Part shown: in pieces, positions 4,052 to 34,248 of the stretch
How the letters are laid out: each line of letters opens with the position of its first letter
Position numbering within the stretch: position 1 is the first letter of the stretch
DNA from: Deltaproteobacteria bacterium
GTDB lineage: Bacteria; Bdellovibrionota_F; JAHFAK01
Length of the DNA stretch: 35,667 nt
Direction of reading: 5' to 3'
NCBI GenBank assembly: GCA_023250585.1
Contig: JAHFAK010000009.1
Coordinates: 1 to 35,667 of the forward strand
Translations under genes and position numbers: made by a program
The notes under the pieces: generated by a model
What the model was told of the DNA's origin: nothing
What the model saw: only the letters and a program-made list of their open reading frames with translations
Databases searched by the model: none

Positions 4052-4173
4052 AAAAGGCAATCAAAAGGTGGGGACCGACATGTGAGCTCATTTAGTAGGA
4101 GGCATTTTATTATCACATATTGATGCCTGCTCAATGCGTTCATATGTCGGTCCCCACCTTTTGATTGCCTTTT
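4052..4173. repeat. Long perfect inverted repeat, 30-bp arms, upstream of trxB
   Basis: Arms 4052-4081 and 4144-4173 are exact reverse complements over 30 bp and enclose 62 nt, within which GAGGCAT and ATGCCTGCTC can form a nested stem. The right arm ends in a T run followed directly by AAGGAG, the trxB ribosome-binding site. It could serve as a terminator for the retropepsin gene or a 5' structure controlling trxB. The left arm is preceded by a tandem duplication of CAATCAAAAGG (4047-4068). No flanking direct repeat was seen. Confidence 0.9.
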
Positions 4174-5127: not shown

Positions 5128-5254
5128 CCGAAACGTGCCCGGCAACTTTCGGTCCATTTTCCGACCAAATGGTACCCTCACTTTACCCCATCTTTTACAT
5201 ATGGGTGTACCTTTTGGTCGATTTTTCGACCGAAAGTTGCCGGGCACGTTTCGG
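5128..5254. repeat. Long perfect inverted repeat, 27-bp arms, between convergent genes
   Basis: Arms 5128-5154 and 5228-5254 are exact reverse complements over 27 bp. The enclosed 73 nt has a second, imperfect tier (CGACCAAA-GGTACCC against GGGT-TACC-TTTGGTCG). It starts one base after the trxB stop and ends two bases before the stop of the opposite-strand lipoprotein gene, so a two-way terminator is plausible. Its sequence is unrelated to the other hairpins here. Confidence 0.9.
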
Positions 5255-13456: not shown

Positions 13457-13486
13457 ACGATGTATCCTCATTAAATCTTACCGTAC

Positions 13487-13644
13487 GTAACAGCTCAGTT
13501 AATGGGGGAGTAAGGGAGTAGGAATGTTCTCACAAAGAATTTCTATCGACGTCGCTTCCATAATACTATTAAGAACGGGGTAAGCGCGCTCGATAGAAAT
13601 TCTTTGTGAGAACATTCCTACTCCCTTATAACTGATGGATTACT
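13487..13644 (+). mobile_element. Foldback MITE-like element, family 1, copy 1
   Basis: Core arms 13512-13549 and 13590-13627 are exact 38-bp reverse complements around a 40-nt core (13550-13589). Outer tiers GTAA/TTAC and TCAGTTA/TAACTGA extend the pairing to the ends. Flanking 7-mers ACCGTAC (13480-13486) and ACAGTAC (13645-13651) match at six of seven bases, as expected of an aged target-site duplication. No coding capacity. Confidence 0.85.
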
Positions 13645-13661
13645 ACAGTACATACCGCCTC

Positions 13662-19021: not shown

Positions 19022-19962
19022 AATCCTGTGATGTCGGTGTTATTGGAAGTGGGGTAGCAGGAATTTCTGCGCTTATCTGGCTTAAACGGCTCGGCTTGCA
19101 TGCAGTTATGTTCGAAAAAAATTCTTCAATTGGTGGGCAATTAATCAATGTTCATAATCGCATTATCGATTACCCTGCGTTGTATGGTCTTACGGGTAAT
19201 GAAATGATTACACAACTAACAAGCCATCTTGAAGCTTTACAATGTGAGTGGCAAACAAATGTGCATGTTCTTTCGCTTGATACTGAAAAAGAACACGTTA
19301 TACTCAAGCTTTCACGAAACTCAGGAACTACTGAAATGATTTCCTCGCGTTATGTAATTATAGCAACAGGAGCACAAGAACAAAAATTATCTATCCCCGG
19401 AGAAGATAAGCTCGATCTCTATCAGGGAAGCCTTTCAACATCTAAAGATATTTCGGTATTTAAGAATAAAAAAGTTATTATTATCGGCGGTGGAGATAGA
19501 GCATGTATTGGAGCCAATAGAATTAAAGACATTGCCCAAGAAGTTATTCTCATTCATCGACGAGCTAGTCTTACTGGACGCAAAGAATTGATAGATCCCC
19601 TCTTACAAAGTTCTCGTATAACCATTAAACCTCATTCAGTAGTGACTGAAATTATATGGAAAAATAAAAAAATTGAATTGGTAAAAATTAAAGATCTATC
19701 AAATCAAAAAGAAGTCATGATCCAAGCTGATATTGTATTAATTAGGATTGGAATAGAGCCAATTCTAGGCCTTCTAAAACAGTATCTTTCAAAAGAAGAT
19801 ACAATAATTCCCACGAATAATTATGGAAAGACACAATTCTCTGATAGGATTTATGCGATTGGAGATGCAAGCCATTCCCCTCACTATTCAAGCATTAGTG
19901 CTTCAGTTGGAGAAGGTATGCTTGCAGCAAAAGATATTTCACTGCACATCAGAAAAGAATGA
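19018..19962 (+). CDS. Thioredoxin-reductase-like flavoprotein without the redox cysteines
   Basis: 314 residues with both dinucleotide-binding sites of the TrxB fold: FAD at GVIGSGVAGISALIWL (8-22) and NAD(P) at IIIGGGDRACIGANRI, plus the C-terminal RIYAIGDAS. At the place where TrxB has CAVC this protein reads STSK (140-143), so it cannot exchange disulphides. Cysteine-less relatives include ferredoxin/flavodoxin-NADP reductases. Its tight coupling to folE-folB (start overlaps the folB stop) suggests a pterin- or folate-linked reductase, which is inference. Its TGA stop lies in the direct repeat flanking the next mobile element. Confidence 0.85.
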   Translation: MKSCDVGVIGSGVAGISALIWLKRLGLHAVMFEKNSSIGGQLINVHNRIIDYPALYGLTGNEMITQLTSHLEALQCEWQTNVHVLSLDTEKEHVILKLSRNSGTTEMISSRYVIIATGAQEQKLSIPGEDKLDLYQGSLSTSKDISVFKNKKVIIIGGGDRACIGANRIKDIAQEVILIHRRASLTGRKELIDPLLQSSRITIKPHSVVTEIIWKNKKIELVKIKDLSNQKEVMIQADIVLIRIGIEPILGLLKQYLSKEDTIIPTNNYGKTQFSDRIYAIGDASHSPHYSSISASVGEGMLAAKDISLHIRKE

Positions 19963-19967
19963 ATGTT

Positions 19968-20124
19968 GAATCCCTCAGTTATTAGGGAGTAGGAATGGTT
20001 CTCACAAAGAATTTCTATCGAGCGCGCTTTCGTGTTCTTAATAGTTTTATGGAAGCGACGTCGATAGAAATTCTTTGTGAGAACCATTCCTACTCCCTTA
20101 CTCCTCCATTAACTAAGCTGTTAC
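19968..20124 (-). mobile_element. Foldback MITE-like element, family 1, copy 2 (opposite orientation)
   Basis: Arms 19984-20021 and 20061-20098 are exact 38-bp reverse complements around a 39-nt core that is the reverse complement of the family core with a few changes. The whole unit is flanked by TGAATGTT on both sides (19960-19967 and 20125-20132), a clean 8-bp duplication. It lies between two convergent stop codons that would be about five bases apart without it. Confidence 0.9.
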
Positions 20125-20131
20125 TGAATGT

Positions 20132-20764
20132 TTATTTCTTTTTATTCATTCGTGTATAGGTCATTGCCATTGTCATGAACTCTTTACCAGCTTCGTCCTT
20201 GGCCCACATGGTATAGGTAAGTTCATCTTTGCCTATCTTAAATTCACTGCGGAACCATTTATCTTGTTCACCAGTCATTGGACAGCTAGCACTTCCACTC
20301 TCTTTTATTGTCTTTGTAGCTGCATCATATTGCCCTGTTGATTTAAAAATACCGGTCATCATGTCATCCATCCAAATTGAATTATACTCTTTCTTTACTT
20401 TATCATAACCACAAAATCCCATGCCTTCGAATTTCTGACCAGCCCAATTGCCTTTGAATTCTTGTTTGATAAAACGTCCACCCAAAACCCAAGACATGGT
20501 GCTTGTGCCTTCGGATTTTTCTTCTGGAGCGCCTGGCTTCATCCATGATTTACTGGTAACTTTCCATTTTCCTACTACATCATTAAATACTGCATGTTCA
20601 GCACCGGGTGTGCCCATTTCTTTCATTTTAGCCATTTGAGCTTGCATCTCGGGAGTCATTTCCATTTTTCCCATGGCTTTTTTGTCAGCTGCATTGACTG
20701 CTGTAGCTAAGAAAATTGCCAGAATTAATCCTTGCATAAGTGTCTGTAATCGTTGTGTCTTCAT
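20132..20764 (-). CDS. Secreted DUF1579-family protein
   Basis: 210 residues. A signal peptide (LQTLMQGLILAIFLATAVNA) is followed by a Met/Lys-rich linker and a beta-rich domain typical of DUF1579: VVGKWKVTSKSWMKPG, TSTMSWVLGGRFIKQEFKG, FEGMGFCGYDKVKKEY, and WFRSEFKIG. Proteins of this type are exported and of unknown biochemical function. GAGGATCAC precedes the ATG. Single gene on the minus strand, convergent to the flavoprotein gene across a mobile element. Confidence 0.88.
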   Translation of the reverse strand: MKTQRLQTLMQGLILAIFLATAVNAADKKAMGKMEMTPEMQAQMAKMKEMGTPGAEHAVFNDVVGKWKVTSKSWMKPGAPEEKSEGTSTMSWVLGGRFIKQEFKGNWAGQKFEGMGFCGYDKVKKEYNSIWMDDMMTGIFKSTGQYDAATKTIKESGSASCPMTGEQDKWFRSEFKIGKDELTYTMWAKDEAGKEFMTMAMTYTRMNKKK

Positions 20765-25145: not shown

Positions 25146-28100
25146 CTATTTCAGTTTCTGATTACATTGATCAGAAGGATAGTAGTAATCGTTTTCTTTC
25201 CCGCTGCTGGCTTCTGTTCGAGTAACGTTGATGGGATACTCCCAGTTACAAGTACACCAAGCGTCTCCTGGTTCGCCATTATCCCATATAACTCGTGCAT
25301 TTGCTTTTTGCAATTGGACGCCCGGATTCATAACAGAAAAGAAATTATCATGCTCAAGATCAATATGAATGTCATATTTTGCCGGAGATGAGCTGTCAGT
25401 CTGATAAGCGCAGGTTATTTTCCATTGCTTAAAATAATCGCAGGTTTTGTCGAGTTCTTCTGAAACACCAATATTTGCACGGTATAACTTTTCATTGATG
25501 TAAAGAAAAGCATTTATATTCCCACATTGAGGCTGACACCAATACATCGCATTGTCTGGAGTTCGTTCAACGTGAAGTTGTGTGCACATCATATTTCCGA
25601 CAAGATCTCTTGCCGAACCATCACTAACTTCAGGGTCATAGAGAGGGTCATAGAATATTTTTAAGCTATTTCCAAGATTTCCTTTTTGTTTATTACAGGT
25701 ATTCTCACATTGTTCTCTTCCTTCAACCGTTGAAGATCCAGAAGCCACCTTTGGAGCAGGAATAGGCCCAGGAATACTAACACTCCATTTTCCTAATAAT
25801 GGACAGCGCTGGCTTGCATATGTTTCGGTAGTAATCTGATTTGCATCATGATCAGCTGCCTCTGCTTGTTTCTTACAAGAAGACCACTTAAGTGATCCCA
25901 CTAAGGATTTATAAGCATTGTCATTAATAACTTTCGTTTTCCACATCATACGAAGTTTTTCTAGGGCAGCAGACGTACGGCACCCTGCTGCAGGCATAGC
26001 AGCCCAACCTTCATAATTAAACAATCCATAAGATAGGTCACAATAATAACTTTGTTCTTGCTGAGGATTTAAATACTTTGAAAAATCATTTTGTACATTA
26101 GAAAAACTTTCAGGAATAAGAAAACTTGTAAAATATTCTGCCGCATCCTCTCCCGATCCTCCGTTTAGTTTCCACATACAAGTACCATACTCGCTTATCC
26201 CGGGCCCATGTGCATTATTAGCTTCATTCCATGGCCCGTATACATAGGATCCAGCAGCATTCCATGCATATGGAATAAGTCTCGTATGAAAATGCCATCC
26301 ATGCCCAAATTCATGAATAACTGTATGCTCGGCCGGCCATAGCATTGTAAAGGTACAGGATGTTTCTTCTAAAAAGACACGCAGCTCTATAGTATCGGGA
26401 TACTTATACCATCCAGAGACTCCGCCAGCCATATCAGAAGTGAAGATAATGACTTGTACCCATTTATGTAAGACAGCTTTATCTAAATTTGTTCTAGAAT
26501 GATTCGTCATACTCAGATAAGCAGTATGAATAGTACAATAGGTGTAGGGATGAACCTCATATTGTTTATCAAGATTTTTTCTTAATAATTCTACACCCCA
26601 ATTCTTTTCCACGCATGCTTCTGTTTGAATCTGACAGCAATCTTCCATCCCCTCTTCTGCTTGCGCTTCCTTCTCCACAGGAAATGCTTTCATCCATTGA
26701 GACCATTTACTATTACGAGGTCCTTGTTCATTCATTGCAGTCTCTATCTCTGCATCACTGGCCTTGAACTCGAACACTTTATTGCCGTTTGTATCACTGA
26801 TATGGATTGTTTCTAATACTTTTGAATCCATAGCAGCAGGAATAAGAGCTGTACCGTATAAAGTAGAATCTGTTGGTATGGTTGTCGGTTGACAATTATC
26901 GGGAGAGTCACATTCTTGATACACTGGATCTATGGTCGCCGCAGCAAAAGATAGGTATGAGGTATACATCTCCTCTCCTTCAGCATCATAGCCATGGAGG
27001 ATGTAAGAACGATCAGTCAATGCTTTCGTATATTTATTTACCCATACCTTATAATCAGGATGTGAATGTTTAATAAAGTCTTCACACTGTATTTGTTCAT
27101 TTTCATCGAGTTTACAATCGAGCGAATACAATTCATTTGCTTCAATAAGCTCTATGCTATCATCGTCATTGTCACTGCTTTCTCCTTGATCTTGGGTACA
27201 AAGACTAACAATAGCGTTAAACTCTTCATCACAACCACTGAGGTTTATATCTTCTAAACTACTGAGGCTACATGTCACATTCTTAACATAGGTATCAACA
27301 CACGAATTTAGTTCTGCTTCTATAGCATTCATCGTTGCTTCATCAGTTGGACAATCATCGGGATATGACTCAGCACAACTCACCGTACAGCTTTGGATAG
27401 AAGCAGTCTTTACTGAATCGGGAAGTGCAAGATTACATTTCTCTATCGTCTTATTCCATAAATCCTCACAGAAATCCTGGCACATTTTTGATTCATTCGA
27501 AGTATCAGGTGTATCACAAACATCACCTATTCCATCATTATCAATATCAGATTGCTGTGGATTTCCTATGTCAGGACAATTATCTTTTGAGTCTTCTATT
27601 CCATCATTATCTGAATCCTTTGGCTTACTCGTATCTGTTCCGTCACATACATTTCCTAGACCATCACTATCTATATCCTGCTGATCTGCATTCGCCGTAT
27701 ATTTGCAGTTATCCTTCTCATTCTCGATTTCATCTCCATCGACATCATTATCACATTCATCACCGAGCCCATCTCCATCAATATCAGATTGACCATTGTT
27801 AGATACTTGAGGACAATTATCTTCGCTATCTTTCTTCCCATCTCCATCGGTATCTGGAATATTCACCTCAGCAGTATCACTTTCTTTCGTTTCTTCCTCT
27901 GTGGCTTGAGTATGAATACGTGCATCGTAGTCAGCTCTGTCCTTATCGTCATTAATGCCATCATTGTCATCATCAGGATCACAGGCATCACCTATTCCAT
28001 CCTTATCAAAATCATCCTGGCTATGATTCTCTACTGTAGGGCAATTATCCACTAAATCATATATTTCATCGCGATCATTATCATCGCAGGCATCACCGAT

Positions 28101-28442
28101 TCCATCTCCATCGCTATCTTTCTGATCCGCATTTACTATTGTTGGACAATTATCCTTACTATCATTTATTCCATCATTATCATCGTCCGGATCGCAGGTA
28201 TTTTTGATCCCATCATTATCGTTGTCTCCATCACTTTGAGAAGATACACATTCCTCAGAAACAACATTCCCTTCAGCCGTTACTTGCGCTTCTGTCTCTT
28301 TTTCGCTGTCTGAATCCCCACCTCCTCCACACGGAAACCCAAATGAAAAGATAATAACAATAAGACCTACGATAATAAAGATGAGCGCTATCGGAAGATT
28401 CTTTCGATGACTTAAAAGATATTTACGACAAAGTAATAGAAT
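25146..28442 (-). CDS. TSP3-repeat lipoprotein with a gluzincin-like zinc site, apparent ATT start
   Basis: 1,098 residues. From ATT 28442 the leader runs through a long hydrophobic helix to a lipobox-like GFPC (Cys38) and a Gly/Asp linker. Thrombospondin type 3 calcium-binding repeats follow at about 65-315 (DNDGIGDVCD, DSDGDGIGDACD and similar), then a cysteine-rich segment, then the domain shared with the neighbouring 183-residue protein (429-564). The C-terminal half carries HEFGH at 710-714 followed by GWHFH, and EDAAEYF at 765-771, the arrangement of a gluzincin metallopeptidase, with many cysteines. No ATG, GTG or TTG precedes the leader in frame, while AGGAGG lies seven bases before the ATT. 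GTG 28052 would start in the repeats and lose the leader. Likely a secreted surface peptidase; activity is inferred. Confidence 0.82.
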   Translation of the reverse strand: MLLLCRKYLLSHRKNLPIALIFIIVGLIVIIFSFGFPCGGGGDSDSEKETEAQVTAEGNVVSEECVSSQSDGDNDNDGIKNTCDPDDDNDGINDSKDNCPTIVNADQKDSDGDGIGDACDDNDRDEIYDLVDNCPTVENHSQDDFDKDGIGDACDPDDDNDGINDDKDRADYDARIHTQATEEETKESDTAEVNIPDTDGDGKKDSEDNCPQVSNNGQSDIDGDGLGDECDNDVDGDEIENEKDNCKYTANADQQDIDSDGLGNVCDGTDTSKPKDSDNDGIEDSKDNCPDIGNPQQSDIDNDGIGDVCDTPDTSNESKMCQDFCEDLWNKTIEKCNLALPDSVKTASIQSCTVSCAESYPDDCPTDEATMNAIEAELNSCVDTYVKNVTCSLSSLEDINLSGCDEEFNAIVSLCTQDQGESSDNDDDSIELIEANELYSLDCKLDENEQIQCEDFIKHSHPDYKVWVNKYTKALTDRSYILHGYDAEGEEMYTSYLSFAAATIDPVYQECDSPDNCQPTTIPTDSTLYGTALIPAAMDSKVLETIHISDTNGNKVFEFKASDAEIETAMNEQGPRNSKWSQWMKAFPVEKEAQAEEGMEDCCQIQTEACVEKNWGVELLRKNLDKQYEVHPYTYCTIHTAYLSMTNHSRTNLDKAVLHKWVQVIIFTSDMAGGVSGWYKYPDTIELRVFLEETSCTFTMLWPAEHTVIHEFGHGWHFHTRLIPYAWNAAGSYVYGPWNEANNAHGPGISEYGTCMWKLNGGSGEDAAEYFTSFLIPESFSNVQNDFSKYLNPQQEQSYYCDLSYGLFNYEGWAAMPAAGCRTSAALEKLRMMWKTKVINDNAYKSLVGSLKWSSCKKQAEAADHDANQITTETYASQRCPLLGKWSVSIPGPIPAPKVASGSSTVEGREQCENTCNKQKGNLGNSLKIFYDPLYDPEVSDGSARDLVGNMMCTQLHVERTPDNAMYWCQPQCGNINAFLYINEKLYRANIGVSEELDKTCDYFKQWKITCAYQTDSSSPAKYDIHIDLEHDNFFSVMNPGVQLQKANARVIWDNGEPGDAWCTCNWEYPINVTRTEASSGKENDYYYPSDQCNQKLK

Positions 28443-29349: not shown

Positions 29350-29415
29350 ATGATCTCCTTTATCTATAATGTACATAATTACGTACATCAAGTCAAGACG
29401 AGTATTTACTCATAT

Positions 29416-29573
29416 GTAATGGCTCAGTTAATGGGAGAGTTAGGGGATAAGCATGTTCCCAAAAAGAATTTCTATCGACGTCGCTTCCATAATACTATTA
29501 AGAACGGGGTAAGCGCGCTCGATAGAAATTCTTTTTGGGAACATGCTTATCCCCTAATAACGGAGGGATTACT
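29416..29573 (+). mobile_element. Foldback MITE-like element, family 1, copy 3
   Basis: Arms 29440-29478 and 29519-29557 are exact 39-bp reverse complements around a 40-nt core (29479-29518) identical to that of copy 1. Ends GTAAT/ATTAC. Flanked by CTCATAT at 29409-29415 and 29574-29580, a perfect 7-bp direct repeat. About seven arm positions differ from copy 1, each matched in the opposite arm. Confidence 0.9.
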
Positions 29574-29589
29574 CTCATATTAAATACGT

Positions 29590-32971: not shown

Positions 32972-32981
32972 ATAAACTATT

Positions 32982-33107
32982 GATACTAAGTTGCATTCAA
33001 ACGCTAACTGCGTTGGCTTCGTCGTCGGCTCCTCAACGTACTCATTACGTACGTTTGCGTCGCCTTCTCCTTGCCGACGTTTATCATTTTGAATGCAACT
33101 TAGTATG
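32982..33107 (+). mobile_element. Foldback MITE-like element, family 2, copy B
   Basis: 19-bp perfect arms, ATACTAAGTTGCATTCAAA (32983-33001) and complement (33088-33106). The inner GCTAACTGCGTTGGCTTCGT and TTATCATTTTGAATGC match the reverse complement of copy A, but the middle is longer and holds its own palindrome around ACGTAC. No clear direct repeat flanks it. It lies directly upstream of der. Confidence 0.75.
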
Positions 33108-33113
33108 AAAACC

Positions 33114-33233
33114 GTAGAGAGGATGTATATGTTCTGTTTTTATTTTGTATCGAGCGCGCTTACCCCGTTCTTAATAGTATTATGGAAGCGACGTCGATAG
33201 AAAATAAAAACAGAACATATACATCCTCTCTAC
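33114..33233 (-). repeat. Family 1 core in a hairpin with unrelated arms (variant element)
   Basis: 40-nt arms 33114-33153 and 33194-33233 pair with a single mismatch. The loop (33154-33193) is the exact reverse complement of the 40-nt core of copies 1 and 3. Beyond the shared TATCGA next to the core, and a short ATGTTCT, the arms do not resemble those of the other copies. No flanking duplication found. It lies seven bases from copy B of family 2, between era and der. Confidence 0.9.
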
Positions 33234-34189: not shown

Positions 34190-34210
34190 GAAGCTTTCAG
34201 ATGTGAAAAT

Positions 34211-34248
34211 AACAGCTCAGTAAATGGGGGAGTTAGGGAGTACATATG
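34211..34248 (+). repeat. Remnant left end of a family 1 foldback element
   Basis: AACAGCTCAGTAAATGGGGG and the following AGTTAGGGAGTACATATG closely match the left end and outer arm of copy 1 (AACAGCTCAGTTAATGGGGG, AGTAAGGGAGTAGGAATG). The core and right arm are missing, so this is a truncated copy. Confidence 0.7.

Follow-up and report, generated by a model that had tools for sequence, protein, structure and literature searches.

GTAA ends together with 8-bp target duplications are hallmarks of IS66 elements, and MITEs can outlive their transposase. Matched changes on the two sides of a stem are routinely taken as proof of a functional RNA. REPINs are REP doublets mobilised by RAYT transposases, and compensatory changes are common in their paired regions (PMC3116915). 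Template switching between inverted repeats leads to homogenisation of the arms and to inversion of the spacer (PMC8604942, PMC8794818). In a window of 35,667 nucleotides (the whole stretch of DNA that was analysed), an initial annotation had described three palindromes as a MITE family with an 'invariant' 40-nt core and drifting yet matched arms, and had stated that no named family is known to behave in this way. The latter statement needs qualification, since REPINs also have co-varying paired spacers, but with constant ends (PMC3116915).

All three palindromes are present where they had been annotated, and their limits were refined to 157 bp each. Coordinates are given on the forward strand unless stated otherwise. 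Copy 1 (13487-13643) belongs to the MITE-borne class I and has its long shoulder on the left. It is flanked by the target duplications TACCGTAC (13479-13486) and TACAGTAC (13644-13651), which match at 7/8 positions. Its exact arms of 39 bp (13511-13549 and 13590-13628) enclose the constant core of 40 nt (13550-13589), which contains an unpaired T (13552), a CGCTT/AAGCG stem, the loop and an unpaired C (13589). Folding almost end to end, as annotated, was borne out by a single-stranded DNA fold of -53.6 kcal/mol for this copy (z = -15.0), with 0 of 200 shuffles equally good. Copy 2 (19968-20124, class I, 157 bp, core on the reverse strand) is inserted 6 bp past a stop codon between two copies of TGAATGTT (19960-19967 and 20125-20132; 8/8). 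Copy 3 (29416-29572, class I, 157 bp) lies between ACTCATAT (29408-29415) and TCTCATAT (29573-29580; 7/8). Beyond the two unpaired bases, the exact arms of copies 1, 2 and 3 measure 39, 38 and 39 bp, in agreement with the 38-39 bp annotated. The core of copy 3 (29479-29518) is identical to that of copy 1, again as reported; several loop positions differ in copy 2. Across the roughly 80 copies described below, the core is conserved but not strictly invariant. Two features of the window had been overlooked. Copy 4 (33114-33233, core on the reverse strand) is a bare hairpin of class II, with a core as in copies 1-3, unrelated outer arms and one mismatch; inspection of its flanks revealed neither MITE ends nor a target duplication. 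A lone left MITE shoulder, TAACAGCTCAGTAAATGGGGGAGTTAGGGAGTA, is found at about 34210-34242 as a decayed remnant that lacks a core.

The host genome is a single fragmented draft (2.24 Mb, 164 contigs, 97% complete). When the genome search proposed in the annotation was run, the pattern scan found 67 exact cores, and the family proved far larger than the window. A covariance model built on 47 copies gave 96 strand-wise matches in the host genome and none in 40 other genomes. After both-strand duplicates had been dropped and diverged copies added, 79 copies were resolved in the whole draft, plus one partly masked by Ns. The family was absent from one other genome of the phylum and from 57 further genomes searched, and the plasmids and phages searched held no relatives; the six matches obtained from GTDB contigs and the single one from IMG/VR are at chance level, both by expectation and by their unrelated context. 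The flanks are unrelated among copies, except for the chimeric pair L001/L004 and three copies next to a different palindromic repeat. The intergenic regions that contain copies are of all three kinds, convergent, divergent and tandem, with no orientation bias. Six mosaic copies (L001, L004, L020, L031, L038 and L163), in which the two arms carry different known variants, could be recombinants with an arm swapped from another copy or assembly chimeras and were excluded from the mismatch counts.

Class I comprises 43 copies, including copies 1-3. Their modal length is 157 bp, consistent with the fixed length that the annotation had suggested looking for, and GTAAYVSCTCAGTTA is found at both ends in 37 of the 43 (up to 4 mismatches); ends of this type number 119 in the genome. 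The flanking duplications suggested along with it are present in class I at exactly 8 bp, where identity reaches 80% as compared to 28-37% at k = 6, 7, 9 and 10, and 27 of 37 copies match at 7/8 positions or more versus 0.08% in re-paired controls. From the GTAA...TTAC ends and the 8-bp duplications we take class I to be an IS66-type MITE, and it is filed as such by these two features, the transposase not having been found: the 97%-complete draft has no match to PF03050, while the controls were positive. An IS66 copy might have been collapsed in the assembly or be missing from the draft. Class II consists of 36 bare hairpins of about 118 bp, including copy 4, in none of which MITE ends are present and whose flanking direct repeats are at control level. 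The label 'MITE' hence applies to class I and not to class II, which makes up half of the family and is a hairpin repeat outside any assigned class, with neither MITE ends nor duplication. MITE and hairpin are separable, because the same MITE ends also enclose other cargo, either a different hairpin, GGATCCCG...TGACA, or an interior that is very short. Where this GTAA-ended MITE carries the unrelated hairpin GGATCCCG.GGTCAAGCC.CGGGATGACA (L108-L117 and L124), most elements again measure 156-161 bp in total, and the shorter ones 71-107 bp.

All copies share the tip, in which a loop of ~26 nt sits on a 5-bp stem and is accompanied by two unpaired bases that are offset from each other. Counted from the tip, the order is loop, CGCTT/AAGCG, an unpaired 5'-side T, CG/CG, an unpaired 3'-side base (C in 43, A in 18 and T in 3 copies) and ~38 pairs. 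The loop carries the motif TTCCATAANANNNTTAAGAAC(A/G)GG.. and ends in one of two ways, ..ACAGGAA or ..ACGGGGTAA, each of which occurs in both classes. In class I, the arms (diversity 0.235) are as diverse as the unpaired shoulders (0.28 and 0.21), and the loop is less so (0.11), which indicates that the stem drifts like the MITE whereas the tip does not. Most likely, the tip is recognised by something, as this is the simplest reading of loop conservation. Loop types and bulge bases reassort between class I and class II, and core exchange between copies may add to the uniformity of the tip. The outer arms of class II are the most variable part of the family (diversity 0.54). They are constrained in length (46.4 +/- 2.2 bp), and the 5' arm contains 42% G and 7% C in its outermost 13 nt, versus about 15% and 13% in the flanks. 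This G bias is confined to one strand, for example at 33221-33233 on the reverse strand, and the G-rich stretch, after which comes ATG or ATC, looks like ribosome-binding sites. A coding peptide behind the start-like motif GGAG...ATGTTC that precedes many cores was rejected, as the ATG is not kept, the distance between motif and core varies by non-multiples of three and the frames differ between the classes. Transcription terminators were discarded on account of the missing orientation bias and the many divergent gene pairs included, and integron attC sites because constant R boxes would be expected at the base of the hairpin, which here is variable.

The drift with matched arms that had been noted for three copies was seen on about 80 copies genome-wide. 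Over the arm columns of 72 copies, 2783 positions are paired, as compared to 8 G.T, 14 A.C and 4 other mismatches and 8 gaps, and the arms are 99% paired despite wide differences between copies. Arms that mutate independently, which would have contradicted the annotation, were looked for throughout the genome and not encountered. The covariance-model alignment, likewise proposed there, allowed compensatory changes to be counted: 97.8% of cells pair, two-sided changes occur at 29 of 37 pairs, 411 cells are changed on both sides, and the covariation score is 0.634 versus 0.158 for shuffled and at most 0.21 for slid alignments. Sequential change by way of viable intermediates should leave mostly one-sided differences between copies at short distance. 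Among nine pairs of class I copies differing at a single stem position, eight differ on both sides (0.89, versus 0.11 one-sided), and nearest-neighbour pairs overall show 218 two-sided versus 21 one-sided differences. The two-sided arm changes comprise 52 transitions and 51 transversions, similar to the 27:35 seen in the unpaired shoulders. Surviving one-sided changes are transitions in 22 of 26 cases, which suggests that distorting mismatches are lost faster than mild ones, removed by copying or by selection.

Our best explanation, which we consider probable, is that these repeats form an intergenic family of one lineage with a conserved tip, that their arms are kept matched by template switching and that class I has spread as an IS66-type MITE. 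The hairpin has its conserved tip on a ~38-bp stem of nearly free sequence. One sublineage, class I, sits inside the MITE and has spread by that route, presumably with an IS66-type transposase acting in trans, and the other, class II, is the bare hairpin. A mutation in one arm would be copied into the other arm, or erased from it, by template switching in a hairpin or cruciform during replication. The tip would have no partner to be copied onto and would be held constant by purifying selection, most likely for the reason that something must recognise it, with core exchange between copies helping.

Both known outcomes of template switching were found as pattern evidence. Arm homogenisation appears to occur in one step and in both directions: in L007-, L066, L067 and L160 the unpaired bases have become paired, through copying that went one way or the other, and in L008, L013, L028 and L081 the MITE shoulders, which are normally unequal, have become identical beside the stem. 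Spacer inversion is seen in the core, whose two orientations relative to the MITE shoulders occur at 18:14; each orientation is found with both loop types. The one-step mirrored changes and the collateral homogenisation therefore suggest template switching between the arms. The annotation had left selection of the hairpin and copying between arms as alternatives. These are partly separable, and the data favour copying, because homogenised bulges, homogenised shoulders and inverted cores are not predicted by hairpin selection. Strong selection against mismatched stems would likewise keep intermediates rare and is to that extent a partial rival. Points against our best explanation are that no IS66 transposase was found in the draft, that no enzyme was linked to class II when the Y1-like genes were checked for adjacency, and that some of the mosaic copies could be chimeras of the fragmented assembly. 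Conservation of the tip, together with the unexplained spread of bare hairpins, points to an undescribed recognition event. We hold it possible, if only tentatively, that the family represents an undescribed mobile hairpin of which the mobilising machinery reads the tip alone (loop and two extrahelical bases), with almost any stem tolerated as long as it pairs, and that this hairpin inserts without target duplication and has also hitch-hiked in an IS66-type MITE.

Structure-recognising recombinases and transposases read features similar to the extrahelical bases and conserved tip seen here. The hairpin could thus be selected as DNA by an enzyme of this kind (HUH/RAYT-like or integron-like), such that only matched copies with a bulged tip move and matching arms are thereby inherited. 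This would agree with the recognition-like appearance of tip and extrahelical bases, with the lack of target duplications in class II and with four Y1-transposase-like proteins encoded in the genome, two of them RAYT-like by eye. However, none of the four genes adjoins a copy, the ends of class II lack the conservation that recognition by an HUH enzyme would need, and class I copies that have lost the unpaired bases keep intact 8-bp duplications. We therefore consider such selection unlikely. A specific linkage to RAYT was rejected, since the RAYT-like genes are not beside copies and the palindromes in the vicinity of two of these genes are members of different families. The single class I copy on contig C47 (L163, C47:164-267) is more than 4 kb away from the RAYT-like gene.

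If instead the copies were transcribed and compensatory mutations preserved an RNA hairpin with a functional loop, the very strong covariation, the conserved loop and the G-rich outer 5' arm of class II, an asymmetry on one strand tied to the orientation of the core, would all be accounted for. Selection at the RNA level predicts an excess of G.U pairs and double changes rich in transitions, and neither was seen: G.U is not in excess on either strand (8 G.T, 14 A.C), and about half of the two-sided changes are transversions (52:51), for which wobble pairs offer no intermediate step. Moreover, the copies show no orientation bias toward neighbouring genes, and nothing in Rfam exceeded the gathering threshold, the weak matches to viral CRE and microRNA precursors being generic for long hairpins. 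RNA-level selection is thus not indicated, and we judge a structured RNA improbable. With its extreme covariation and no sign of RNA selection, the family is a natural counter-example to the customary reading of matched stem changes, as well as a multi-copy data set and natural test case for measuring template switching.

Copying could also be coupled to transposition, with a single strand that folds back and is primed at its tip serving as template for each new copy, so that one arm would be freshly copied from the other every time. This route predicts perfect arms and mirrored changes equally well, and the absence of duplications in class II is compatible with it. Class I, however, moves in double-stranded form, as a MITE with 8-bp duplications, and yet has the same mirrored changes, and the G-rich outer arms of 46.4 +/- 2.2 bp were not copied from AT-rich insertion sites, which makes this route quite improbable and, given their constrained length, also rules out that target DNA was copied into the arms. 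An assembly artefact or a single recent segmental duplication, the latter named in the annotation as a possible refutation, is hardly credible, since although the genome is a draft with some copies near contig ends and a few mosaics, the roughly 80 copies differ in their arms, have unrelated flanks and in many cases lie well within long contigs.

Other repeats occur in the same window. Positions 5128-5254 belong to a REPIN-like family of about 25 genome sites, with CCGAAACGTGCCCGGCAAC ends inverted around a variable centre, and at one site, on contig C32, a match to a RAYT-like gene is ~300 bp away. A second REPIN-like family (4052-4173) has AAAAGGTGGGGACCGAC at its ends, and its variable centre is paired in part; a perfect palindrome of this family that lacks the core is found at C47:2737-2786. 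The palindromic repeat at 32979-33107 has TACTAAGTTGCATTCAAA ends, one end lies 7-8 bp from the class II hairpins L010 and L068, and in the half copy L017 the loop is joined to sequence related to this repeat. At 27513-28181, several imperfect DNA repeats of ~100 bp seemingly encode calcium-binding thrombospondin type 3 repeats.

ERIC, RPE, BOX and other stem-loop repeats are likewise palindromic and intergenic, many of them 100-160 bp long, a likeness at family level only (PMC2267715, PMC10969869). Template switching in quasi-palindromes shares the homogenised arms and inverted spacers (PMC8794818, PMC8604942, PMC7202029), but here ~80 paralogous copies of one element are involved and the tip escapes. 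Class I resembles IS66-type MITEs in its GTAA...TTAC ends, target duplications that are exactly 8 bp long, fixed length of ~157 bp and non-coding, intergenic nature, and differs in its near-perfect palindromic interior, in its conserved, invertible tip and in that no IS66 transposase was detected in the draft. With REPINs the family has in common that its members are short, dispersed intergenic hairpins with no obvious cargo and with compensatory changes in the paired regions. REPINs, however, have constant ends and a variable centre, and the present family a constant tip and variable outer arms. Neither two inverted REP sequences as constant ends (the class II arm diversity is 0.54) nor a linked RAYT gene was found, the Y1_Tnp matches lying on contigs C13, C32, C47 and C69. 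A literature search of papers outside subscription journals returned no palindromic family with a constant centre. Among known systems, MITEs and REPINs come closest; the present family differs from them in keeping its centre constant and not its ends.
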